From: Eggerthella lenta DSM 2243
Lineage (GTDB): Bacteria; Actinomycetota; Coriobacteriia; Coriobacteriales; Eggerthellaceae
Length of the DNA: 64,000 nt
Assembly (NCBI RefSeq): GCF_000024265.1
Contig: NC_013204.1
Location: 2,732,501-2,796,500, forward strand
Direction: 5' to 3'
A program made the translations under genes and the position numbers. Positions 52,638 through 63,680 of the stretch are shown one piece after another. How positions within the stretch are numbered: position 1 is the first letter of the stretch; every line of letters begins with the position of its first letter. Under the pieces are notes generated by a model. That model saw nothing but the letters and a program-made list of their open reading frames with translations, was not told the DNA's origin and searched no databases.

Positions 52638-53579
52638 ATGCAGCCTCAACGTCTGTTCGAAATCGTCTACCTGCTGATGGATCGCGGCACCGCCACCACG
52701 GGCGAGCTGGCGCGCAAGCTGGAGGTGTCCGAGCGCACCGTGCGCCGCGACATCGACGCGCTGTCGGCCGCGGGCGTGCCGGTGTACATGACGCGCGGCA
52801 AAGGCGGCGGCGTGCACCTCATGGACGGCTACGTGCTGGACCGCTCGGTGCTGAGCGAGCGAGAGCAGGACGACATCATGGCCGCGCTCTCCGCGCTCAA
52901 CCGCACCGGGGCCAGCGACGATGCGAGCGACGAGACGGCCGTGCGCCTCGGCCGCCTATTCCAGCGCGAGAACGTGAACTGGCTGGACATGGATTTCTCG
53001 TTCTGGGGCGCGCCGCCGAACTACCGCGCCGCGTTCGACACCATCCGCGACGCCGCCATCGGGCGGCACCCGCTGTCGTTCGCCTACTTCGACGCCGAGG
53101 GCAACCGCACCGAGCGCACCGTGGAACCCGCCCAGCTTATGTTCAAGGAATCGTCGTGGTACCTGCGCGCATGGTGCCGCGAGCGGGATGCATGGCGCAT
53201 GTTCAAGCTGTTCCGCATCGACTGGGAAACGTTGGATGTGCTGCCGGAAACGTTCGAAGCGCGCGAGCTGCCTGCACTTGATGAAGGCGGGCACATGAAA
53301 GGCGACGACGTGCTGGTGATGCGCTTCGCCGCGCAGGCCGAGTCGCGCGTCCGCGAGGAGTTCGCGCCCGAGACGATCGTGCGCGAGGCCGACGGCAGCT
53401 GGCTCGTGACCCTTACCTGCGACATCACCGAACGCACGCGCTACTATCTGCTGTCGTTCGGCCCTCTGCTGGAAGTGCTCGAGCCGCCCGACGTCCGCGC
53501 CTGGCTGTTCAAGCACGCCGAAGCCATGGCGCGCGCTTACGCTTCCGACGGCCAGTCGGCCAGCAGCGCCCCCAGGTAG
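52638..53579 (+). CDS. HTH/WYL-domain transcriptional regulator
   Basis: 313 residues. The N-terminal winged HTH (RLFEIVYLLMDRGTATTGELARKLEVSERTVRRDIDALSAAGVPVYMTRGKGGGVHLM) is of the DeoR-like type, followed by a WYL ligand-binding domain (PAQLMFKESSWYLRAWCRERDAWRMFKLFRI) and the WCX extension. It lies 11 bp after the GNAT gene and probably shares its operon. Its 3' end overlaps the convergent TorD-like gene by 43 bases. Confidence 0.93.
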   Translation: MQPQRLFEIVYLLMDRGTATTGELARKLEVSERTVRRDIDALSAAGVPVYMTRGKGGGVHLMDGYVLDRSVLSEREQDDIMAALSALNRTGASDDASDETAVRLGRLFQRENVNWLDMDFSFWGAPPNYRAAFDTIRDAAIGRHPLSFAYFDAEGNRTERTVEPAQLMFKESSWYLRAWCRERDAWRMFKLFRIDWETLDVLPETFEARELPALDEGGHMKGDDVLVMRFAAQAESRVREEFAPETIVREADGSWLVTLTCDITERTRYYLLSFGPLLEVLEPPDVRAWLFKHAEAMARAYASDGQSASSAPR

Positions 53580-54247
53580 GCCGCCGCCGCGCGGTAGAAG
53601 GGATGGCGCGCCTCGGCGGCCAGGCGCTCGGCGAAGGCTGGCATCCAGGCTTGGGCGTGTCCGGAGAGGAAGGTCTCGTAGGCGGCGGCCGGGCTCCCTC
53701 CGGGGAGGCCGGCGCCGTCCGGGGCGCCCTCGGAAGCCGGGGCTCCGGCCGCGCGCAGGGCCAGGCGCTCGAGGAGCTCGCACTCGGTCGCGACGTGGTC
53801 GAGGGGCTCGTTGGTGCCCTCGGGGCGGCCGAGGCCGCAGGAGCGCATGAAGCGCTCGACCTCCATGGAGCGGGGGTTCACGAACAAAAGCGGCTGCACC
53901 CCGTCGGCCTCCGCGGCCCACACGCCCTCGTAGGGCGGGCAGGCTGGCTCGGGCGCGCCGACGAACAGGCGCGTGGCCTCGGGTCGCAGGGCGCGCAGGA
54001 GCGCGTCGGCGCCCGCGGCGGCCTCGGCGCCGGCCGCGCGGGCGGCGGGAGGGCCTGCGGGATCGCCCGCCGCCGCGGGGACCTCCGCGGGCAGGCCCAG
54101 CGCGGCCAGGATCTCCCGCGCCGCCTCGTCCCACTCGCCGCCCGCCGCGGCTCCGGCCAGCTCCGCGCCCGGGTAGCGCAGGCTCAGCGCCGCGAGCTCC
54201 CAGGCGGCGGCGCGGGCTTGCCAGAGCTCTTCAACAGTCATCGTCAT
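53537..54247 (-). CDS. TorD/DmsD-family molybdoenzyme chaperone
   Basis: 236 residues, rich in Ala. ELWQARAAAWELAALSLRYPGAEL opens the all-helical fold; RLFVGAPEPACPPYEGVWA and FMRSCGLGRPEGTNEPLDHVATECELLERLA are the conserved TorD segments (the family E-P-x-D-H motif). It would bind the Tat signal of the molybdoenzyme during cofactor insertion. Last gene of the operon; ATG at 54247 overlaps the radical SAM stop (ATGA). It overlaps the convergent WYL gene by 43 bases. Confidence 0.9.
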   Translation of the reverse strand: MTMTVEELWQARAAAWELAALSLRYPGAELAGAAAGGEWDEAAREILAALGLPAEVPAAAGDPAGPPAARAAGAEAAAGADALLRALRPEATRLFVGAPEPACPPYEGVWAAEADGVQPLLFVNPRSMEVERFMRSCGLGRPEGTNEPLDHVATECELLERLALRAAGAPASEGAPDGAGLPGGSPAAAYETFLSGHAQAWMPAFAERLAAEARHPFYRAAAAYLGALLADWPSEA

Positions 54248-55551
54248 TCGCCTTTCACAGGTTCCAGTTTCAGCTCGCGGACGATGAAGCCATCCGCGGT
54301 TTCTTCCAGCACGTTGATCGATCGACACAATACGACGGGCAGCGCTTGCACGATAGGGATGTGACGCGGATGGAAAGCCAGGCTAAGGCCTTCGTCCTCA
54401 AGCGAGAACGCGCCGACGCCGCACGCCTCCAGCGCGTGCCGCGCCAAGGAGACGTCGCCGTCGAACACTTTCACCGTTTTCAGGAAGAAATCGTGCGGAT
54501 CGCGCTCGTACACTCCCGCATCGACGGAGCAAGCGCCGTTTTGAACGCAAATCTGATCGCGGTGCTTGTTCTCGAGCGAGCAGTAATGCACGCCAAGGGA
54601 CAACCCCTCGTCGAGCGCGTACTCCAACAACTCCAAGCACAGGAGCTCGCTGCCCGCCAGCGGCAGACCGCCTGCGTAGCCGTAGTCGTACAGCACGGGA
54701 AACGGCGGGTTCTTCACCGAAAAGCCGCGGCGCTCGAACTCGTCCCAAGCTCCCATGGGGTAGCAGAACTCAAGAAGGTTGATGCCGAACGCGCCGACTT
54801 GATCAAGACGATCCAGCAGACGACGCATCGCCTCGCCCGTGCCCGGTATCACGGGCATCTCCATCATCACCTGCGGGATGAAGCGCTTCGCACGGGCAAG
54901 CACGTCGACGGCATCATCGATGATCTCATCGGCGCGATCGACGTCGAAAACGTCCAGCTTGATGCTCATGCGCAGCTCGTCGAGCCCGGCGTCGCGCAAG
55001 CGATCGAGCAGCGGTTCGTCAAGGAAATCGCCGGCGGTGTACAACCTGATATGGGCACGCGGAAAGCGCTGGCGAACGTAAGCGCAGAACATCACGGACT
55101 CGTCGGCATGAAGCAAAGGCTCGCCCCCCGTCAGCCCCACATGGGTGACCTCGCCGCCGCACGCATCGGCGAACGCATCGACCTCGTCGCGCCACGCATC
55201 GTTCACGCGCAGACGATCGGCATAGTCGGCCTGGTTGGCGTTGAAGCAGAAATAACAAGATCGATTGCATGCGAGCGACAGGAAGAACGTCTTGCTCCCC
55301 CGTCCTCCCGTGCAGGCCACGCACGCCGACGACAGGTTGCCGCAGACGACGCCTGCATCGCCGTTGCGGAACTGCGCGCCCTTCTCCCGCAGCCGATCCT
55401 TCGCCGCGCGGGCCGCATCCGCATCCGCATCGCGCGGCGCGATGCGGATGCCCCAATCGACAAGCCGAGCAAGATAATCGGCTTCGATGGCGGCATATTC
55501 GTCAAGCCACGCGCGCAGCGTGGGCCTCGCCTCAAACAGATCGGCGCTCAT
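54244..55551 (-). CDS. Radical SAM protein in a molybdoenzyme operon
   Basis: 435 residues. The core cluster motif CNRSCYFC (CxxxCxxC) follows a Cys-bearing lead-in (CGNLSSACVACTGG), so a second iron-sulfur site is possible; further Cys are at HYCSLENKHRDQICVQNGAC. GLTGGEPLLH is the GGEP SAM-binding motif. I do not know this subfamily. Start ATG at 55551 has GGAGG eight bases upstream, and the gene overlaps its neighbours on both sides, so it belongs to the operon. It may mature the enzyme or the cytochromes. Confidence 0.85.
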   Translation of the reverse strand: MSADLFEARPTLRAWLDEYAAIEADYLARLVDWGIRIAPRDADADAARAAKDRLREKGAQFRNGDAGVVCGNLSSACVACTGGRGSKTFFLSLACNRSCYFCFNANQADYADRLRVNDAWRDEVDAFADACGGEVTHVGLTGGEPLLHADESVMFCAYVRQRFPRAHIRLYTAGDFLDEPLLDRLRDAGLDELRMSIKLDVFDVDRADEIIDDAVDVLARAKRFIPQVMMEMPVIPGTGEAMRRLLDRLDQVGAFGINLLEFCYPMGAWDEFERRGFSVKNPPFPVLYDYGYAGGLPLAGSELLCLELLEYALDEGLSLGVHYCSLENKHRDQICVQNGACSVDAGVYERDPHDFFLKTVKVFDGDVSLARHALEACGVGAFSLEDEGLSLAFHPRHIPIVQALPVVLCRSINVLEETADGFIVRELKLEPVKGE

Positions 55552-56017
55552 CGTCGAAACCTCCGTCGTCATGCGCGGCGGCCTTTGCAACGCCGCGCCG
55601 TTTCAGCAGATTGTACAGCGAACCCGCATGCACGGCCATATGCACGAGAAGAAGCGCGAACAGCGCCTTCGCCGCCGCGGCATGCAGAGGCGACCACGTA
55701 TAATACCCCTCGGCATACAGGCCGAACGCCTGCAGCACCGCGCCCGACATGCCCAATCCCGACACGAAGACGGTCGAGAGCGCCACGAGCAACGCGGCAT
55801 CGAGCGCCAAACGCCCGCAGCTCCGCAGACGCGCCCCGCGGGCGCATCGCGGAAGGGCGCGCGCGACCCGATCGACATGCTGCGCGCAATGGACGAAAAC
55901 GGGCGCCAGCAAGGCCAAACCAAACCATTCGTGCGCAGGCACGCCCGTCAACGAGGGAAGCGCTGCAAGCGCATAAGCCAGAAACGCCGAGAAATCAACA
56001 ACGAGCATCCGCTTCAC
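55532..56017 (-). CDS. DUF4405-like cytochrome b-type membrane protein
   Basis: 161 residues with four membrane helices. His residues pair across helices (PVFVHCAQHVDR; PLHAAAAKALFALLLVHMAVHAGS), consistent with heme b ligation as in the DUF4405/cytochrome b561-like group. Start is GTG at 56017 with GGGGAA upstream; ATG at 56008 is possible. It overlaps the radical SAM gene by 20 bases. Probable role: electron transfer between quinone and the small cytochrome. Confidence 0.72.
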   Translation of the reverse strand: MKRMLVVDFSAFLAYALAALPSLTGVPAHEWFGLALLAPVFVHCAQHVDRVARALPRCARGARLRSCGRLALDAALLVALSTVFVSGLGMSGAVLQAFGLYAEGYYTWSPLHAAAAKALFALLLVHMAVHAGSLYNLLKRRGVAKAAAHDDGGFDDERRSV

Positions 56018-56033
56018 CAGGTCACTTCCCCTC

Positions 56034-56390
56034 TTAAAGCTTTCGCACGATCAGAACAAGCAGCCCGACGAGTGCGACCGGCGCCAAGATCCAGAGGTTC
56101 AAGCTGGCATCGGACGCGCGGTGATAGCGCGTCGCCAGCGTGTCCCACGCATGGCACTCGACGCTGGCGCAGCCCGCCTCGGGACAGGCCATCTCGTGCA
56201 CGCCATCCGGCTCGGGCACATCGCCGAAACCATGGCACGACCCCGACGCGCACCCGACGACCGGGCAAGGCGAGTGGGGCTCGATAGGCCGGGGAAGCCC
56301 CACCGCCGGACTCGCAGCCGCAACAGCCCCGAACACGACGACCCCCGCGAAAAAGAACGTCGCCAAGGTGATGATCGCTTTCCTCAGCAT
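56034..56390 (-). CDS. Small membrane-anchored protein with two CX4CH motifs
   Basis: 118 residues. An N-terminal signal or anchor (AIITLATFFFAGVVVFGAVA) and a C-terminal membrane helix (LWILAPVALVGLLVLIV) enclose about 60 residues with CPVVGCASGSCHGF and CPEAGCASVECHAW. Each has C-x4-C-x4-C-H. CX4CH is a rare but accepted heme c attachment motif, known from tetraheme cytochrome c3. It may carry two hemes, or metal bound by the extra Cys. Start ATG at 56390 is tentative. Operon position supports electron transfer. Confidence 0.65.
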   Translation of the reverse strand: MLRKAIITLATFFFAGVVVFGAVAAASPAVGLPRPIEPHSPCPVVGCASGSCHGFGDVPEPDGVHEMACPEAGCASVECHAWDTLATRYHRASDASLNLWILAPVALVGLLVLIVRKL

Positions 56391-56416
56391 CTCGTTCGCC
56401 ACCCCTCCATGTCGCA

Positions 56417-56450
56417 CGGCGGGGCGCCCGATGGTTCGGGCGCCCCGCCG
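56417..56450 (-). terminator. Hairpin between the NrfD and CX4CH genes
   Basis: Perfect 14-bp stem (56417-56430 with 56437-56450), 6-base loop. No T-run follows on the minus strand, so it probably stabilises or partly attenuates the message, setting the ratio of the catalytic genes to those downstream. Confidence 0.55.
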
Positions 56451-56465
56451 AAAAACGGATCGTAT

Positions 56466-57692
56466 CTAGTGCGAACGCTCGGTCGGCTTCAACGGGAGAA
56501 ACTTGAGGCCCAGCAGCAGCATGAGCGCGCCCAGCCCGAAAACGCCCAGCACGACGCCGAATTCGAGCATCGACGGAAAGTACACCATCGATCCGCCTGC
56601 GCTCTGCAGAGCCGCACCCGCATCCGTAAGAGCCGGACCGGACACGACGGCGGGCATATCGAGGTTCGGGATCTGGAAACCGCCCACCAGCAGCTGCACG
56701 CGCTTGCAGAAGATGCCCACGATGGCCAGCACCGCCGCAATCACGATAAGCGGGTTCGTGCGCAGCTTCGGCACGAAGGCGATGACCGCAGTGACGGCGC
56801 ACCCTACGACTTCGATCCAGAAGAAAGGAGCGAGCGGACCCGTGGTCAGCATGGCGACGACCTCCGCCCCCGATCCGGCCGGGAAGCCCTCGGTCAGCAA
56901 GTCGCAACCGAAGAAGTACAAATCCACCATCACGAACACCCCGAGGAGCTTAAGCATCTTGACGACATGCTCCTGCGCAAGCTCCAGGTAACCAGCCTTG
57001 CGCAGCGCGATGACCACGACGAGCACGAGCGCCACGCCGCACACCAGAGCCGACGACACGAACCAGGGGCCCAGAAGCGCGGTATGCCACATCTCGCGAC
57101 CCTGCTGCAAACCGAAGATCCAAGCGGTGACCGAGTGAACGAGCACGGCGCACACCAGAGCGATGGCGGACACCACGCGCAAAGCAGCGGCAGAGCCCTT
57201 GCCGCCCTCGAAGCGCAGCATAGCCCACAAATACACGACGGACAGGATCAGGTACGTGCCCAGCACGATGATGTCCCACATCAAAGGCGAGCCGAGATTG
57301 GAGTACACGAACAGCTCCCAAAGGCGCAGCGGCTGGCCGAGGTCGATCACGACGAAGCCGATCGCCAGCACCGTGCAGCAGATGGAGGTCCACACGGCGA
57401 TCTTCGACACGCCGCCGAAACCCTCCATGCCGAACACGCGCGGAGCGCTCGAGACGATAAGGCCGCCGGCGGACAGACCGACGAGGAACATGAACATCGT
57501 GATGTAAAGCCCCCACGAGTCCAGATTGCGCATGTTGGTGTTCACCATGCCGCTGGTCAGCTGAAATGCCCACAAAGCCAAACCGCCGACGGTGAGAATG
57601 GCCGCCACCACGATGGCGACAGCAACCCCTTTGCCGCCGAATCCGGCAGCGGAAACCTTGGCGGACTTCTCCGCCGATACGTTCTCAGACAT
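56466..57692 (-). CDS. NrfD/PsrC-type membrane subunit
   Basis: 408 residues with about ten membrane helices, as in the quinone-reactive anchors of DMSO-reductase-type complexes. LDSWGLYITMFMFLVGLSAGGLIVSSAPRVFG and LGQPLRLWELFVYSNLGSPLMWDIIVLGTYLI are NrfD hallmarks. ATG at 57692 has AAGGGG seven bases upstream. It lies 11 bp after the iron-sulfur subunit gene and completes the three-subunit oxidoreductase. Confidence 0.93.
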   Translation of the reverse strand: MSENVSAEKSAKVSAAGFGGKGVAVAIVVAAILTVGGLALWAFQLTSGMVNTNMRNLDSWGLYITMFMFLVGLSAGGLIVSSAPRVFGMEGFGGVSKIAVWTSICCTVLAIGFVVIDLGQPLRLWELFVYSNLGSPLMWDIIVLGTYLILSVVYLWAMLRFEGGKGSAAALRVVSAIALVCAVLVHSVTAWIFGLQQGREMWHTALLGPWFVSSALVCGVALVLVVVIALRKAGYLELAQEHVVKMLKLLGVFVMVDLYFFGCDLLTEGFPAGSGAEVVAMLTTGPLAPFFWIEVVGCAVTAVIAFVPKLRTNPLIVIAAVLAIVGIFCKRVQLLVGGFQIPNLDMPAVVSGPALTDAGAALQSAGGSMVYFPSMLEFGVVLGVFGLGALMLLLGLKFLPLKPTERSH

Positions 57693-57703
57693 GATCAATC
57701 CCC

Positions 57704-58327
57704 TTACACGAGGTAGTACACGGATGGCTTCGTGCCTTCGCTGGCCAGCAGCTGCTCGTAGGAGCGCTCTTTGACAAGCTTCGACACCTCCGAATCCGGA
57801 TCGTCGAAGTCACCGAAGTGACGGGCGCGAGCCGGGCACAACTCCATGCATGCCGGCACCTCCTCACGGGCAAGGCGCTGGTAGCAGAAGGTGCATTTCT
57901 CGACCACATGCTTCTGGTGCTTCGGGACGTCTGCATCGCCGACAGCATGGTCGACGGGGTACTTCGGCTCCTCCCAGTTGAACGAGCGTACGCCCGTGTA
58001 CGGGCAAGCCGCCATGCACATACGGCAGCCGATGCACTTGTCGTAGTCCTGACGCACGACGCCCGTCTCGGGATCTTTGTAGGTTGCCCCCACAGGGCAC
58101 ACCTTCGTGCAAGTCGGGTTCTCGCAATGCTGGCAGCCTACAGTGATATAGCGCATCGACACGTCAGGGAAGACGCCGGCCGGCGTGTCGATCTCGTCGC
58201 CGCCCTCCGTGAGGACCCGGGTCCACCAATTAGTCTCGGGAAGGTTGTTTGTTATCTTGCAGTTCACGGAGCAGGCGTTGCACCCCACGCATCGCTTCGT
58301 GTCGATGACCATGCCGTAGCGGGCCAT
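57704..58327 (-). CDS. 4Fe-4S ferredoxin-type electron transfer subunit
   Basis: 207 residues of the DmsB/PhsB type. Four cysteine groups are seen: CVGCNACSVNCKI, CQHCENPTCTKVCP, CIGCRMCMAACPY and CTFCYQRLAREEVPACMELCP, for four 4Fe-4S clusters. It carries electrons between the NrfD-type subunit and the molybdoenzyme. Its ATG overlaps the stop of the catalytic gene by one base (TAATG). Confidence 0.96.
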   Translation of the reverse strand: MARYGMVIDTKRCVGCNACSVNCKITNNLPETNWWTRVLTEGGDEIDTPAGVFPDVSMRYITVGCQHCENPTCTKVCPVGATYKDPETGVVRQDYDKCIGCRMCMAACPYTGVRSFNWEEPKYPVDHAVGDADVPKHQKHVVEKCTFCYQRLAREEVPACMELCPARARHFGDFDDPDSEVSKLVKERSYEQLLASEGTKPSVYYLV

Positions 58328-60792
58328 TACCTCACACCCCCTTCGTACTTCTCGACTTCGCAGAGGAAGTCGTAGAAGGCGCTGTTCGAGCAGAAATCGT
58401 TCATGTACACATTCGTCAGATCCTGCGTATGCCCCTCGACAAACTGGCTAGCCTGGAAACCGTGCGGAATGGAGACGACTCCCGGCTTGATGCCCTCGGT
58501 CACACGCGCCTTGAGCACGGCATAGCCGTGATCGTTGTAGACGCGCACGTAGTCGCCCTGCTGGATTCCGCGCTCGGCGGCATCGGTCGCGTTGACCTTC
58601 AGCAACGGCTCGGGCTCGAGCTCGCGCATGACCGGCGTGTACGCCAGCTGCGAATGCACGTGATACTTGCTGTGCTCGCTGCATCCGAACAGCGGATACT
58701 TGTCGCGCAGCGGATTCTCCTCGTATGCCTCGTTCGCGTGCTCGTAGTAAGGCAGACGCTCGCAATCGGCGATCTTCTGCCCGAAGTTGTTGCGCGGCGT
58801 GGGCTTCTCGAGGTAGTACTTCAAACGCTGCGCCTCGGCGCTGCCGAACTTCGGCACCATACGCGACTCGGTGTAAGAAGCATCGCGAACCAGCTTGCCC
58901 GTCTTGAGCTCGTCGAACGTGCAGCCCTGCTTGACGTTGGCCTCGGTATCGATGACTTCCTTCAAGAAATCATCGTCCGATTTCGGGTAGATGTCCATGC
59001 CCATCTTCGCGGTCACCAGACGCATGATCTCCAGATCGGTCTTGCATTCGTACAGAGGGTCGAGCACTTTCTGGGTGAACGTGGGATACGGCACCGAGCA
59101 CACCGGGTCGAAATCCTGCACCTCGAACGAATGGGGCACCGGCAAAAGGATATCGGCCCACTGCGCAGTGTCGGTCATGTTGACGTCTGCGCACACCACG
59201 AAGTCGATCTTCTTGACAGCGTCGATGAGGTCTTGACGGCCCGACTCGCAGGACAGCATGTTGCCGTTGCAGCACCACAGAACGCGAATCTCGAGATCCT
59301 GCCCCGCCCACTTTTTCTCCTCCATGACCTTCGGGAGGTACATGCCGCAGAAGCTGGCACCGGGAGTTCCCAACATGTAGGCTTTCACGTTGTAGCCCAC
59401 CATGCCCGTCGATGGGCTGCCGCAGATGGAAGCGCCCGGCTTGCCGGCGTTGCCGGTCAGAGCCGCGAGGAACGCGAGGTTCTTGAAGTTGTGATGGGAG
59501 TTCGCATGGTGTCCGAGTCCCTGGAACGTCATGACGTACACGGGGCCTTCGGTGGCATACACGCGGGCCAGTTCCTCGATCTGCTCCTTCGGGAGGTCGC
59601 AAATGTCCGCAGCCCTCTCGACGGTGTATTCGGAAATGCTCTCCTTGACAACTTGGTAGACCGGTTTCACGGCGAAACCCTGCACCTCGAACGATCCTTC
59701 GATGGCGGGCTTCTGCGCGGCATCGGCGGTCGCAGGTGCGCCGGCAGCCTCGTCCCACACCGCAACCGGATCGATCACGGTGGGCTTGCCCGTGCGCGGA
59801 TCGACCGGTCCCTCGGTGGCAGGCGTGCCCAGATCGCTCATGTGAAGGTACGTGCCGTCCTCCTTCACCAAGAACGGAGACACCGTGCTGCTTCGCATGA
59901 ATTCTTCGTCCATCAAGCCGTTCTCGATAATATGATTGGCCATGGCCAGCATGAGCGCGCCGTCGGTGCCCGGCCGGACGGGAACGTAGACGTCGGAGTG
60001 CATGGCCGACGCGGTGAACTGCGGGTCGATGGTGATGAGCTTTGCGCCCTTCTCGCGCGCATCGCACACGAACTGCCACGCATGCACGTACGCTTCCGCC
60101 GGATTGCCGCCCCACGAGATAATGGTCTTGGCGTTGGCGGCATCCACGAAGTCGTTGCCCGAAATCCCCAGCAGCGTCGACTGCTCATGCTGCTGCGCCG
60201 TATCGGCACCGGCTCCCAGTACCGAGCCCCCGACGGCCGTGATGAAGCGACCGTAGGCAACGGACATGTAGCCTGCCATCGCACCGTTCAGAACGCCGTA
60301 CGAACCATACGAGGACCAAACGGCAACCGACGTGCCACCGTAATCTTTGATAGCCGCGCCCATCTTCTCCGCGATGGTGCTAACAGCCTCGTCCCAGCTG
60401 ATGCGCTCCCACTCGCCCGCTCCGCGCTCCCCGACGCGCTTCATGGGGTACTTGAGCCGGTCGGTATCGTACACGCGCTGCGGCTGGCTGAACCCCTTCA
60501 CGCAGAAGCGCTTGCGGACGGCATCCTCGCCGGGCATATCCATGGGACGGGCTTTGACCACCTTGCCCTCGCGCACCGTCACCTCCAAGGGGCAGCGGCT
60601 ACCGCAGTTGCCGCGGCATGCGCTCCTGAACGTCTGCTCGCCATCGGCGGATGAACTTCCCTCCGCATTCGCCGGCATCGGCGCCAGCGCAGCGCCCGTG
60701 CCTGCGACAGCCGCGACGGCCGTGACGGCACCCGTCGTCTTCAGGAAGCCTCTACGCGTGAGTCCGCCGAGCGGGCTCTTCGTCTCAGACAT
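58327..60792 (-). CDS. Tat-exported molybdopterin oxidoreductase, catalytic subunit
   Basis: 821 residues of the DMSO-reductase family. The Tat signal is TRRGFLKTTGAVTAVAAVAG. The first cluster motif CRGNCGSRCPLEV...RFCVKG binds a 4Fe-4S as in DmsA. The molybdopterin domains follow, with DPQFTASAMHSDVYVPVRPGTDGALMLAMANHII, and the dinucleotide-binding end (KARVTEGIKPGVVSIPHGF). The Mo-ligand residue is not certain from sequence; the SSYGSYG segment is a candidate region. It reduces or oxidises an unknown extracytoplasmic compound. Start ATG at 60792 has GGAGGAGG. Confidence 0.94.
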   Translation of the reverse strand: MSETKSPLGGLTRRGFLKTTGAVTAVAAVAGTGAALAPMPANAEGSSSADGEQTFRSACRGNCGSRCPLEVTVREGKVVKARPMDMPGEDAVRKRFCVKGFSQPQRVYDTDRLKYPMKRVGERGAGEWERISWDEAVSTIAEKMGAAIKDYGGTSVAVWSSYGSYGVLNGAMAGYMSVAYGRFITAVGGSVLGAGADTAQQHEQSTLLGISGNDFVDAANAKTIISWGGNPAEAYVHAWQFVCDAREKGAKLITIDPQFTASAMHSDVYVPVRPGTDGALMLAMANHIIENGLMDEEFMRSSTVSPFLVKEDGTYLHMSDLGTPATEGPVDPRTGKPTVIDPVAVWDEAAGAPATADAAQKPAIEGSFEVQGFAVKPVYQVVKESISEYTVERAADICDLPKEQIEELARVYATEGPVYVMTFQGLGHHANSHHNFKNLAFLAALTGNAGKPGASICGSPSTGMVGYNVKAYMLGTPGASFCGMYLPKVMEEKKWAGQDLEIRVLWCCNGNMLSCESGRQDLIDAVKKIDFVVCADVNMTDTAQWADILLPVPHSFEVQDFDPVCSVPYPTFTQKVLDPLYECKTDLEIMRLVTAKMGMDIYPKSDDDFLKEVIDTEANVKQGCTFDELKTGKLVRDASYTESRMVPKFGSAEAQRLKYYLEKPTPRNNFGQKIADCERLPYYEHANEAYEENPLRDKYPLFGCSEHSKYHVHSQLAYTPVMRELEPEPLLKVNATDAAERGIQQGDYVRVYNDHGYAVLKARVTEGIKPGVVSIPHGFQASQFVEGHTQDLTNVYMNDFCSNSAFYDFLCEVEKYEGGVR

Positions 60793-61249
60793 GTCTCCTC
60801 CTCCATTCATGTTGCAGAATGCCTGGGGATCATCGTAAGAAGGTGAGTGTTCCGCGTACGGGTATCCCCCTCCGGCTGCATGGGTGCGCGTGCGCTCCAA
60901 TACAGGTTCCGATATTCCCCCTCATATCAGAATCGGCCGATTCCTTCTTGTCATAGTCTGCCATATGTCACTATGATTATCAATAATAATGTATGACAGG
61001 ATATGACAGGAAGTTATACTATTTTGAGGATATAGAGGTTGAACTGGGAGTATAAAGGGTTATCATGGAGGTTATGGCATGAGAGCCGACTGCGGCATTC
61101 GGCCGCAGCCTAGCTCATATAGTAGCCAAAATCGGCGCGTTTCGCACCTTTGGCTCGCATGTTGGCCGCTGCCGAAGAGGCCACTGGCCTGAAGCCCTTC
61201 AACCAAGGAGCTCCTTTGCGCACTTAGGAGACGCCGCTCGAAGCCCGCG
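60793..61249. promoter_or_regulatory. Intergenic region upstream of the molybdoenzyme operon
   Basis: 457 bp. The left part is GC-rich leader, the middle (60940-61080) an AT-rich promoter area with TATGACA half-sites, the right part holds small inverted repeats: CTGCGG/CCGCAG at 61088-61106 and AAGGAGCTCCTT near 61205. A short in-frame run on the minus strand (61072-61287) has no coding character. No gene supported. Confidence 0.5.
60949..61008. promoter_or_regulatory. TATGACA operator repeats upstream of the molybdoenzyme operon
   Basis: TGTCATA at 60949-60955, TATGTCA at 60964-60970, and two TATGACA copies at 60992-60998 and 61002-61008 spaced exactly ten bases. The same half-site forms a palindrome at 63758-63774. 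Likely binding sites for a dimeric regulator of this and the NrfD-like gene. Confidence 0.55.
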
Positions 61250-62254
61250 CTACTCCCCCGCTGCGGGCCTTCCCGCGGTCGCCGCACCCCCGGCTTCAGG
61301 CGCGAAGCCCTCGCTGAAGGCGCTGGGGATGACCAGCGTGCCGCCCGACTGCTCGACGCTTTCGTAGGCCAGATGCATCGTGCGCAGCTTCATGGCGTCC
61401 TGATCGCCGGCGTACACTTCGGAGGCATCTTTCAGCATCTCGGAGATGTCCTTCTCGGCCTCGGCCAGCACCATGCGGGCGTTCTTCTTGCGCTCGGCCA
61501 CGGCCTCCATGGCCATGGCCTCCTGCAGCTCTTTCGGCACGACGATGTCGCGCACCTCCACGTCGATGATGTCGATGCCCCAGGGGCTGAGCTTCTCCTC
61601 GATGGCGTCTTTCAGCTCGGCGTCCAGCTGGTCGCGTCGCATAGCCACCTCGGCCACGGTGGCGCGCCCGATGGCCTTGCGCATGGCCGTCTGGGCCACC
61701 CAGGCCACGGCGGCCGAGTAGTCCTCCACCTCCACGCACGCCTTCTTGGCGCTAAACACCATCCAGAACAGCACGGCATCCACGTTGATGGGCACGAGAT
61801 CGCTCGTGAGCGTCTCCTCGGCGCCGAAGTACGTGGTTGCCACGCGCTGATCGATGCGCAACGTGTAGAACTCGATGATGGGCCAGGTGAACACGAGGCC
61901 GGGGCCCGCCACGCGGTTGAACTTGCCGAAGCGCAGCACCACCGCCTTCTCCCACTCCAACACGATGTGCACCGACGAGGATGCCAGCCACCCGACGATG
62001 GCCGCACTTACGAGGGCGACGAGGCCGATCTCCGCGAACGCCGCCTGCGCCGCCGCCAGCACGATGCCGAACGCCAGCACGAACACCACCACGGCGAACA
62101 CGACGGCTCCGTTGCGCGAGGCGCGGCTGCGGTTGGTCACCGAGCGGATGCCGTCGGGGGCGCCGCGGCCGTCGGAATACGCGGGCATGGCGCCCGTCGA
62201 GAACCCCGTCGGCCCGACGCCCGCTTCCGCGCCTGCTCGCTTGTCGCGTTTCAT
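61250..62254 (-). CDS. Slipin / SPFH (band 7) membrane protein
   Basis: 334 residues. Two adjacent hydrophobic stretches (AVVFAVVVFVLAFGIVLAAA and IGLVALVSAAIVGWLASSS) precede an SPFH domain: VVLRFGKFNRVAGPGLVFTWPIIEFYTLRIDQRV and DVEVRDIVVPKELQEAMAMEAVAERKKNARMVLAEAEKDISEM, the typical slipin core. These proteins organise membrane microdomains and often control proteolysis by a partner; no NfeD gene is adjacent. GGGAG stands before ATG. It follows the GntR-type gene by 33 bp. Confidence 0.92.
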   Translation of the reverse strand: MKRDKRAGAEAGVGPTGFSTGAMPAYSDGRGAPDGIRSVTNRSRASRNGAVVFAVVVFVLAFGIVLAAAQAAFAEIGLVALVSAAIVGWLASSSVHIVLEWEKAVVLRFGKFNRVAGPGLVFTWPIIEFYTLRIDQRVATTYFGAEETLTSDLVPINVDAVLFWMVFSAKKACVEVEDYSAAVAWVAQTAMRKAIGRATVAEVAMRRDQLDAELKDAIEEKLSPWGIDIIDVEVRDIVVPKELQEAMAMEAVAERKKNARMVLAEAEKDISEMLKDASEVYAGDQDAMKLRTMHLAYESVEQSGGTLVIPSAFSEGFAPEAGGAATAGRPAAGE

Positions 62255-62287
62255 CGTTCGATCTCCCTTCGCGTTCGGGCGCGGCCT

Positions 62288-62683
62288 TTAGCCTGCGTCC
62301 CGCTTGGTTTTCGCTTCGTTCAAGCTGAGCGCGAACTGCTGCTCGATGTCCTCCAGCGACATGCCCAGCTCGAAGCAGCGCTTGAGGTACTCGCTCGTGA
62401 CGATCTCGGCCGTGGACGAGATGCTGACGCCCGGCTTGTCGGACACATCGAGGACAAACGCGCCCTGGCGGCGTTTGGACTGGATGTAGCCGTCCTGCTC
62501 GAGGCTCATGTACACCTTGCTCACCGTGTTGTAGTTCACCTCGACGTCCGCGGCGAGGCCGCGCACGGTGGGCAGCTGGTCGCCCGGCTTGTAGTACCCC
62601 GAGGTGATGAGGTAGATGAACCGGTTCTTCAGCTGCAGCCAGATGGGGATGCTGCTCTTCTCGTTTATCTCGAATAGGGCCAC
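62288..62683 (-). CDS. GntR-family regulator (YtrA-like)
   Basis: 131 residues. IPIWLQLKNRFIYLITSGYYKPGDQLPTVRGLAADVEVNYNTVSKVYMSLEQDGYIQSKRRQGAFV is a GntR winged HTH, with a short helical tail as in the YtrA subgroup that regulates membrane proteins. Start is GTG at 62683, with a weak ribosome binding site. Only 13 bp from the NrfD-like gene upstream and 33 bp before the slipin, so the three may be one operon. Confidence 0.9.
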   Translation of the reverse strand: MALFEINEKSSIPIWLQLKNRFIYLITSGYYKPGDQLPTVRGLAADVEVNYNTVSKVYMSLEQDGYIQSKRRQGAFVLDVSDKPGVSISSTAEIVTSEYLKRCFELGMSLEDIEQQFALSLNEAKTKRDAG

Positions 62684-62696
62684 GTGTCCGTTCTTT

Positions 62697-63680
62697 CTAT
62701 TCCAATCGAAGTTCGAGCCCGGTCGGCTCGCCTTCGAACGTTTGCTCCGCCGCCGCGCCTTCCAGCGCGAGCTCGCGATGCGACCCCGCCTCGGCCAGGG
62801 CGGTGCGCATGCTGAACCCGCCCACCAGCACGAGCACGGTCGCCACGGCCAGCCCCGTTCGGCACGCCTCGGAGAAGGAGCCGCGCGCTGACAGCACGCC
62901 TTCCACCGCCAGCGGCACGACGAGCCCGCACAGCGCGAAGCCCACCCACCACCACAAAGCCAAGTCGCCCTCCGCAAGACGCTGGGCGGACGCGACCGCC
63001 CCCGGATGGTCGTCGGCGAGCGCGAACGCGACGAACAGCGCCGCGGCCGCGGCCTCCAGCACGACGATCAGGGCGTCGACGCGCGCGAGCATGCGGAAAA
63101 GCCATGCGGTGCCCGCGTCCGCCGGCGCGAAGTACGCCGCCAGCAGAAGCGCAGCCATGCCGCAGGAAAGCGACGACAGCAGGAACAGCACGGGCACAAG
63201 CGGAGAGCTCCACAAGGCCACCGCGCCCGTGTTCTGCAGCAGCAAACCGGTGTACAGCATGACCACGACGGCCACGACCGCAGCCGCGGCCTCGACGGCT
63301 CGGACCGCTCCGCGCGGCACGCTGGGCAGATAGGCGAACCGCACGGCCACCAGCAGCGCCGCGCATGCCGCCAGCCCCGCGAGCGCGTAGGTGCCCACCG
63401 TGAGAAACGAGAGCGAGGGCCGCAGCAAGAGCGAGGCGACGCGATCGATGCGCCCCAGGTCGAACAGCAAGAACAGCATGCCGAGCGCGAGCGCCGCGAA
63501 CCCGGCGAGCATGCCGACGGCCACCGTGCGCTCAAGCGGCGTCGCCTCCCCGATGCCGATGCGCGATGTATGCCCGAACGGGGCCTTCACCCACACGAGG
63601 TCGAGGATCGACGCAACCGCGATAGCGCCCGCGCCCGCGCCGCCGAGGAACAGATAGCCCACCGCCAAAACGCTGAACAT
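62697..63680 (-). CDS. NrfD-like membrane protein (second copy)
   Basis: 327 residues, about eight to nine membrane helices. MFSVLAVGYLFLGGAGAGAIAVASILDLVWV and MLFLLFDLGRIDRVASLLLRPSLSFLTVGTYAL follow the NrfD/PsrC pattern of a membrane quinol-interacting subunit, but no catalytic partner stands on the same strand in the window. ATG has GGAGGGGG. It lies behind the TATGACA palindrome at 63758-63774 and is divergent from the gene starting at 63945, which may belong to the same system. Confidence 0.83.
   Translation of the reverse strand: MFSVLAVGYLFLGGAGAGAIAVASILDLVWVKAPFGHTSRIGIGEATPLERTVAVGMLAGFAALALGMLFLLFDLGRIDRVASLLLRPSLSFLTVGTYALAGLAACAALLVAVRFAYLPSVPRGAVRAVEAAAAVVAVVVMLYTGLLLQNTGAVALWSSPLVPVLFLLSSLSCGMAALLLAAYFAPADAGTAWLFRMLARVDALIVVLEAAAAALFVAFALADDHPGAVASAQRLAEGDLALWWWVGFALCGLVVPLAVEGVLSARGSFSEACRTGLAVATVLVLVGGFSMRTALAEAGSHRELALEGAAAEQTFEGEPTGLELRLE

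Follow-up and report, generated by a model that had tools for sequence, protein, structure and literature searches.

What does a radical S-adenosylmethionine (SAM) protein do in an operon for a molybdoenzyme? The question is raised by a locus in a 64,000-nucleotide window from Eggerthella lenta DSM 2243 (contig NC_013204.1, positions 2,732,501 to 2,796,500 of the forward strand), the whole stretch of DNA that was analysed and to which coordinates refer unless stated otherwise. At 53537-60792, sequence analysis confirms a predicted operon of seven minus-strand genes in the order MopB (the catalytic subunit), 4Fe-4S subunit, NrfD, a hairpin, CX4CH protein, DUF4405 protein, radical SAM protein and TorD. 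All seven open reading frames (ORFs) lie where an earlier note on this DNA had placed them, with successive gaps of -1, 11, 63, 16, -20 and 2 bp if the start of the CX4CH gene is taken as 56402; the third gap becomes 75 bp if this gene begins at ATG 56390. That note had described a molybdoenzyme exported by the twin-arginine translocation (Tat) pathway, with its 4Fe-4S and NrfD subunits and a terminal TorD, and the Pfam matches agree with it (MopB, 4Fe-4S, NrfD, DUF4405, Radical_SAM and the TorD-type Nitrate_red_del are all above cut-off). Its further claim was that the three genes in between are unusual beside such an enzyme. In the Eggerthellaceae this is not the case; here they make up two separable modules, a CX4CH-DUF4405 pair and the radical SAM gene. 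We give a probability of roughly one half to the reading in which the product of the operon is a membrane-bound molybdoenzyme exported by Tat and supplemented by two modules, one for maturation and one serving as a haem relay.

What is surprising is that the radical SAM family associates with genes for MopB, TorD and the Tat system. In the window genome, the protein (435 aa; 54244..55551, minus strand) is the one member of its family, the only other match being weak and partial. Across 396 genomes of Coriobacteriia, in which at most about four radical SAM candidates per genome were scored, 75 contain a match at E<=1e-30, and all 75 also contain a MopB, which 171 of the 396 lack; for this co-occurrence, a Fisher test that ignores kinship gives 7e-22. 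Within the window's family (111 genomes), the median number of MopB candidates, counted as first-look candidates, is 26.5 in the 68 genomes with the radical SAM gene and 8 in the 43 without it. The two genes are also close neighbours, as judged from hidden Markov model matches, on which all neighbour counts given here rest. After 34 of the 112 mapped Eggerthellaceae loci had been dropped for short flanks (<5 kb on either side), a MopB lies within 5 kb of the radical SAM gene in 63 of the remaining 78. The density of MopB genes predicts 13.5, and the maximum reached in 200,000 density simulations is 33.

The association extends well beyond this class. A wider scan of one genome per species (84,980 species) yielded at least 190 confirmed relatives, 80 of which were kept. 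Thirty-two of these loci lie outside the Coriobacteriia, in Bacillota, Chloroflexota and one Enterobacterales genome, many of them on contigs of metagenome-assembled genomes. A MopB or TorD gene is found within 6 kb in 26 of the 32 and in 19 of the 20 that have full flanks, the one miss being a locus of Desulfosporosinus hippei (L114). Among all 80 loci, a double ferredoxin of a 391-aa type is near 20, TatC near 14 and an FmdE-like protein near 11. Nearly all of these neighbours occur in Chloroflexota, where the usual gene order, with variations, is MopB-FeS-DmsC-TorD-ferredoxin-radical SAM-TatC/TatA. At one locus, L137, both the 391-aa double ferredoxin (L137:8778-9950) and the FmdE-like zinc-ribbon protein (L137:17170-17778) accompany the radical SAM gene, and neither reaches an NCBIfam cut-off. 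The closest form of linkage is a single ORF in which the radical SAM protein is followed by TorD, found in Enteroscipio rubneri (714 aa; L081 and L043 denote one gene) and in a further Eggerthellaceae genome (694 aa; L050). Operon types group together in a FastTree phylogeny built from 159 radical SAM proteins, with 48 changes versus 102.8 in shuffles and 0 of 200 shuffles as low; 113 of the rows have a MopB, TorD or ferredoxin/Tat cassette nearby, 22 have none within 4.5 kb and 24 lie at contig ends. Run across genomes, these comparisons do not place the radical SAM and CX4CH genes mostly in unrelated contexts, the outcome that the earlier note had named as speaking against its proposal. Two exceptions are taken up below: a radical SAM sub-clade whose members mostly have neither MopB nor TorD nearby, and a single CX4CH-DUF4405 pair that adjoins genes resembling those of complex I.

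The protein has the hallmarks of the radical SAM superfamily, namely the CX3CX2C motif (C95, C99 and C102; 55246-55269), a match to PF04055 (61.4 bits, cut-off 29.5) and, in its predicted structure, a partial TIM-barrel core. Apart from the motif, C77, C80 and C324 are invariant in the 54 sequences compared, which bears out the extra cysteines noticed earlier; these three residues could hold a second cluster. Of the named radical SAM families in NCBIfam, such as HxsC, MoaA, NirJ and PqqE, none is reached: the protein scores under the cut-off of all 16 models listed, the best being HxsC (41.9 bits, cut-off 267.9) and MoaA (38.7 bits, cut-off 284.05). Its model is of high quality (mean predicted local distance difference test score, pLDDT, 94.2; predicted template modelling score, pTM, 0.92), and Foldseek ranks viperin-like enzymes, BlsE and lipoyl synthase highest in the PDB; over the 50 rows displayed, the template modelling (TM) score normalized by query length does not exceed 0.40. 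A second structure comparison gave Z scores of 16.8 for viperin and 16.3 for NifB over core residues 42-339. A known fold beyond the radical SAM core was considered and rejected, given TM values of at most 0.40 and a comparison that spans residues 42-339 and barely covers the C-terminal part.

The putative client of this protein, MopB (821 aa; 58327..60792, minus strand), is a member of the dimethyl sulfoxide (DMSO) reductase family, with the Pfam domains Molybdopterin (PF00384, 148.9 bits), Molydop_binding (PF01568, 74.0 bits) and Molybdop_Fe4S4 (PF04879, 38.4 bits) above cut-off and a predicted Tat signal (TAT_signal score of 21.3 bits, cut-off 22.7). It remains below the NCBIfam cut-offs for DMSO_red_II_alp (335.5 bits, cut-off 984.75) and dmsA_ynfE (348.5 bits, cut-off 777.7). 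The column of the molybdenum (Mo) ligand is Asp in all 53 aligned MopBs of the CX4CH type and, by a hand count, aligns with Asp170 of 4ydd, which we take to be the Mo ligand. DMSO reductases of type II are defined by Asp-ligated Mo in the available part of PMC6650914, and by alignment the window MopB is of this type. Among 102 MopBs that adjoin a radical SAM gene, the Asp is present in all NrfD-type groups (14, 5 and 5 sequences), in 1 of 25 partners from MopB-FeS-TorD-radical SAM operons and in 0 of 13 partners from Tat cassettes, with the column being mostly gap in the latter two. Aligned in this way, the radical SAM family goes with more than one MopB class, which would favour a target that these classes have in common, for instance the cofactor or a TorD-bound state, over one side chain.

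A single target residue in MopB was sought nevertheless. His711 is present in 20 of 20 CX4CH-type MopBs from operons with a radical SAM gene and in 1 of 31 from operons without it, a comparison that omits L163, L292 and two short MopBs (384 and 507 aa), includes seven operons relabelled by hand as containing the gene because it lies upstream of MopB, and draws on 57 MopBs of which 55 are distinct, some CX4CH operons having been fetched twice. His711 and Ser161 both separate CX4CH operons that contain the radical SAM gene from those that lack it, yet they do not do so across all types of partner, and a single target residue was therefore rejected; moreover, long FastTree branches leave shared descent as another cause of the split.

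In the explanation we propose, TorD would hold the unfinished catalytic subunit in the cytoplasm, where the radical SAM protein would act on the TorD-bound subunit or its Mo-bis(pyranopterin guanine dinucleotide) cofactor. This radical reaction would be required by a subset of enzymes, and Tat export would follow. At the membrane, electrons from the quinol pool would enter via NrfD and the 4Fe-4S subunit, while the CX4CH protein, with two haem c sites, and the DUF4405 protein, with two haem b sites, would form a second membrane relay on the same enzyme. We thus infer for the radical SAM protein the role of a maturase that acts on molybdoenzymes while they are bound to TorD and not yet exported by Tat; its reaction, substrate and timing are likewise inferred, as are the binding of haem and the direction in which electrons flow. 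A maturation role is suited by the fact that the radical SAM gene follows MopB, TorD and Tat genes and is separable from the CX4CH-DUF4405 pair. The earlier note had offered two ideas, a maturation step and an electron branch leading to another acceptor. It is partly supported, in that the evidence is compatible with either idea, but with different genes carrying them. In the Eggerthellaceae loci examined, the CX4CH and DUF4405 genes are nearly inseparable from MopB-FeS-NrfD and look like built-in subunits instead of a second-acceptor branch. More tentative, and somewhat short of an even chance, is the wider claim that some DMSO-reductase-family enzymes in several bacterial phyla depend for their maturation on a hitherto undescribed radical SAM step, which a dedicated double ferredoxin would feed in some lineages and which would precede Tat export, and that many Eggerthellaceae complexes contain a new built-in haem c/haem b relay.

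The CX4CH protein (56034..56390, minus strand) is small and exported-looking, with a C-terminal transmembrane stretch. Its homologues' starts and an upstream GGAGGGG favour the ATG at 56390, with 56402 and 56417 as possible alternatives. The two C-x4-C-x4-C-H motifs reported before (56232-56267 and 56151-56186) are indeed there, their six Cys and two His residues being invariant in 14 homologues; the first Cys of each motif is additional to the CX4CH that it precedes. The protein shares a conserved CXnCH with c-type cytochromes and matches no known cytochrome c family; the CX4CH variant is listed as a haem motif in the available part of PMC10734462. Its partner, the DUF4405 protein (161 aa; 55532..56017, minus strand), matches PF14358 (38.3 bits, cut-off 26.7), in keeping with its earlier description as DUF4405-like cytochrome b, and has two pairs of His residues, H29/H43 and H112/H126, that both follow an H-x13-H pattern and do not vary among 14 sequences. 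Cytochrome b of bc1 complexes typically has its His pairs spaced in this way. In addition, the portion of PMC12727194 available lists DUF4405 matches for most of a cytochrome b561 cluster. The pair may be a haem c/haem b conduit, and the window genome contains two Cytochrom_C_asm matches.

A profile of the 14 CX4CH sequences matches 50 of the 396 Coriobacteriia genomes at E<=0.001, two of them marginally. In the 61 loci contained in the stretches fetched (the full listing has 88 rows, including fragments and the two marginal ones), DUF4405 is the next gene in 59, and NrfD is found upstream in 60, FeS in 58 and MopB in 57. TorD is a near neighbour in 33 loci; 21 contain the radical SAM gene, which lies within scan range in 14 and upstream of MopB in 7. 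The near-fixed pairing with MopB-FeS-NrfD in the Eggerthellaceae loci examined is what makes CX4CH and DUF4405 look like built-in subunits. Six loci are incomplete, five of which (L163, L271, L286, L299 and L306) end at a contig end or at the end of the fetched stretch. The sixth, L309, from a distant Coriobacteriia family, has a CX4CH-DUF4405 pair without MopB, and its CX4CH protein retains all six Cys and both His residues of the two motifs. The pair lies beside NADHdh (NuoH-like), Proton_antipo_M (antiporter-like), cytochrome c3-like and Tat FAD_binding_2 proteins (L309:2884-12945), a context that fits the pair as a redox conduit. The L309 gene set could itself encode an ion-pumping reductase complex.

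Several observations weigh against the combined reading of a maturase and a haem relay. The chief one, directed at a strict tie between the radical SAM family and molybdoenzymes, is a clade of 40 rows in the tree, of which 18 are unlinked, 15 at contig ends and 7 linked. In genomes of this clade with a strong match, MopB is present elsewhere in the genome, and these radical SAM proteins may thus possibly act in trans. Furthermore, 40 of the 61 CX4CH loci have no radical SAM gene, among operons of this kind a sister operon in the window genome itself, and the Pseudomonadota case rests on a single locus, L148. His711 is present in 0 of 13 Tat-cassette partners and in 0 of 25 partners from MopB-FeS-TorD-radical SAM operons. 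As to the relay, the CX4CH protein has no invariant third His in the 14 sequences, no Pfam match for any of the 14 members up to E 1 and no credible relative in the PDB; the DUF4405 model is poor (pLDDT 71.4, pTM 0.52, from 8 sequences) and has no Foldseek match at E<=0.001; and ResB was not found in the window genome.

Taken together with the extra invariant Cys before each CX4CH, the missing third His and the missing match to a cytochrome family would suit a haem-free protein whose Cys-Cys-Cys-His clusters hold iron-sulfur or zinc or act as a dithiol relay. We regard this alternative as rather doubtful, given that the protein looks exported, that its cytochrome-b-like DUF4405 partner is always present, save at two contig ends, that a cytochrome c3-like protein lies near the pair in L309 and that CX4CH is a listed haem motif (PMC10734462, as available). 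The maturase is challenged by the idea that the radical SAM protein converts the respired substrate or some other small molecule, its proximity to TorD being incidental. Nucleotide enzymes (viperin) do stand among its nearest folds, besides cofactor and peptide enzymes, one sub-clade is mostly without MopB neighbours, and the gene occurs in only the 21 CX4CH loci mentioned. However, the family sits with very different MopBs, of the Asp-ligand NrfD type and the DmsC type, whose substrate need not be common; in two species it is fused to the chaperone in a single ORF; and it adjoins TorD, ferredoxin and Tat genes in Chloroflexota, all of which makes a small-molecule enzyme unlikely. Finally, with tens of MopB candidates per Eggerthellaceae genome, the radical SAM gene could be a hitch-hiker among molybdoenzyme genes so dense that any gene adjoins one, but this is highly improbable, as the density test rules out chance neighbourhood (63 of 78 loci, 13.5 expected, simulation maximum 33) and the linkage recurs outside the Coriobacteriia and in the radical SAM-TorD fusions.

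Viewed as a maturase acting on a relay-equipped molybdoenzyme complex, the system resembles several known ones in part. The 4Fe-4S electron-transfer subunit (207 aa; 57704..58327, minus strand; Pfam Fer4_11 and others) is DsrO/NrfC-like, and the NrfD-family membrane anchor (408 aa; 56466..57692, minus strand; PF03916, 155.6 bits) is DsrP-like. Their best NCBIfam scores are to DsrO (180.6 bits) and DsrP (147.4 bits), subunits of the kind found in DsrMKJOP/QrcABCD complexes, both below the respective cut-offs of 200 and 350. The small c-type and b-type partners recall DsrJ and DsrM. Unlike DsrMKJOP/QrcABCD, the window operon has a MopB, and there is no DsrK-type or multihaem QrcA-type subunit among its seven genes. 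Four core genes are common to the window operon and the 'nrfD-hybA-bisC' operons (MopB, Fe-S and PsrC-type NrfD plus TorD or DmsD) surveyed in PMC4464133, as far as this source was available, to which the window operon adds the CX4CH-DUF4405 pair and the radical SAM gene; the word 'radical' is absent from the main text of that survey. With radical SAM maturases such as NifB and the one of the quinohemoprotein amine dehydrogenase locus, the window protein has the core in common, NifB being among its nearest folds, and the latter locus, in the available part of PMC2147049, likewise encodes both an exported redox enzyme and its own radical SAM protein. In contrast to named maturases of this kind, the window family stays under NCBIfam cut-offs and is linked to TorD and MopB.

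The window TorD (234 aa; 53537..54241, minus strand; PF02613, 80.1 bits, cut-off 22.2) is the last gene of a MopB operon, as expected of the NarJ/TorD/DmsD chaperones, from which it differs in having relatives fused to a radical SAM protein in two species; it remains below the NCBIfam equivalog cut-offs for TorD (36.3 bits, cut-off 132) and DmsD (30.9 bits, cut-off 162). Molybdoenzyme maturation is described as chaperone-guided cofactor insertion in the portion of PMC10609526 available. The word 'radical' is absent from the available parts of reviews of molybdoenzyme maturation and chaperone operons, and the accessible sections of the open PubMed Central literature searched describe no radical SAM protein as tied to TorD or MopB. 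If our proposal is true, a chaperone-joined radical SAM partner adds a chemical step to molybdoenzyme maturation, and the CX4CH-DUF4405 pair is a new way of wiring an NrfD complex into the membrane. It is tempting to speculate that the lack of a maturase could contribute to the resistance of gut molybdoenzymes to production in standard hosts, catechol dehydroxylases being hard to obtain from such hosts according to the available part of PMC11887054.

The sister operon lies just beyond the window end (genome positions 2798549-2804502) and has the order MopB-FeS-NrfD-CX4CH-DUF4405-TorD. Protein identities between the two operons are 39% for MopB, 69% for FeS, 74% for NrfD, 74% for CX4CH, 47% for DUF4405 and 95% for TorD. 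The TorD genes (window 53537-54241 and sister L270:6550-7248) are identical at 643 of 661 bases, probably owing to recent gene conversion, which would mean that almost one chaperone serves two divergent MopBs. Each operon is preceded by a triad of genes. In the window, it occupies 61250-63680, some 460 bp upstream of the operon, and comprises minus-strand genes for an SPFH/Band_7 protein (61250..62254; PF01145; 54% identical to its sister counterpart), a GntR-type regulator (62288..62683; 39% identical to a sister protein with PF00392) and a second NrfD-family protein, NrfD2 (62697..63680; PF03916, 88.4 bits; 44% identical to its counterpart). The sister's own triad is arranged in a different order (L270:13077-15383). 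All three families recur in many Eggerthellaceae loci: among 121 fetched loci, NrfD2 has 47 members in 41, GntR has 43 in 37 and SPFH has 28 in 26.

Between the NrfD and CX4CH genes, the GC-rich hairpin reported earlier at about 56417-56450 is present on the minus strand, with a 15-bp perfect stem and a folding energy of -41.9 kcal/mol (z -5.1; 0 of 200 shuffles equally stable). Perfect stems of at least 9 bp are found in 16 of 48 NrfD-CX4CH gaps of 20-250 bp, compared with 0.28 expected from order-1 shuffles, and these recurring stems occupy the same place (window gap 56391-56465) with unrelated sequences. An intrinsic terminator was rejected, as the hairpin is not in the terminator listing and inspection of the sequence revealed no T-tract behind the stem; the same is true for a known RNA element, with no Rfam match at E 0.1. 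The hairpin may be an mRNA element that sets unequal amounts of the operon's two halves. The gap that precedes MopB is AT-rich and contains, at 60991-61010, a possible regulator site made up of two 10-base repeats that adjoin each other and are nearly identical (minus strand CCTGTCATAT and CCTGTCATAC).

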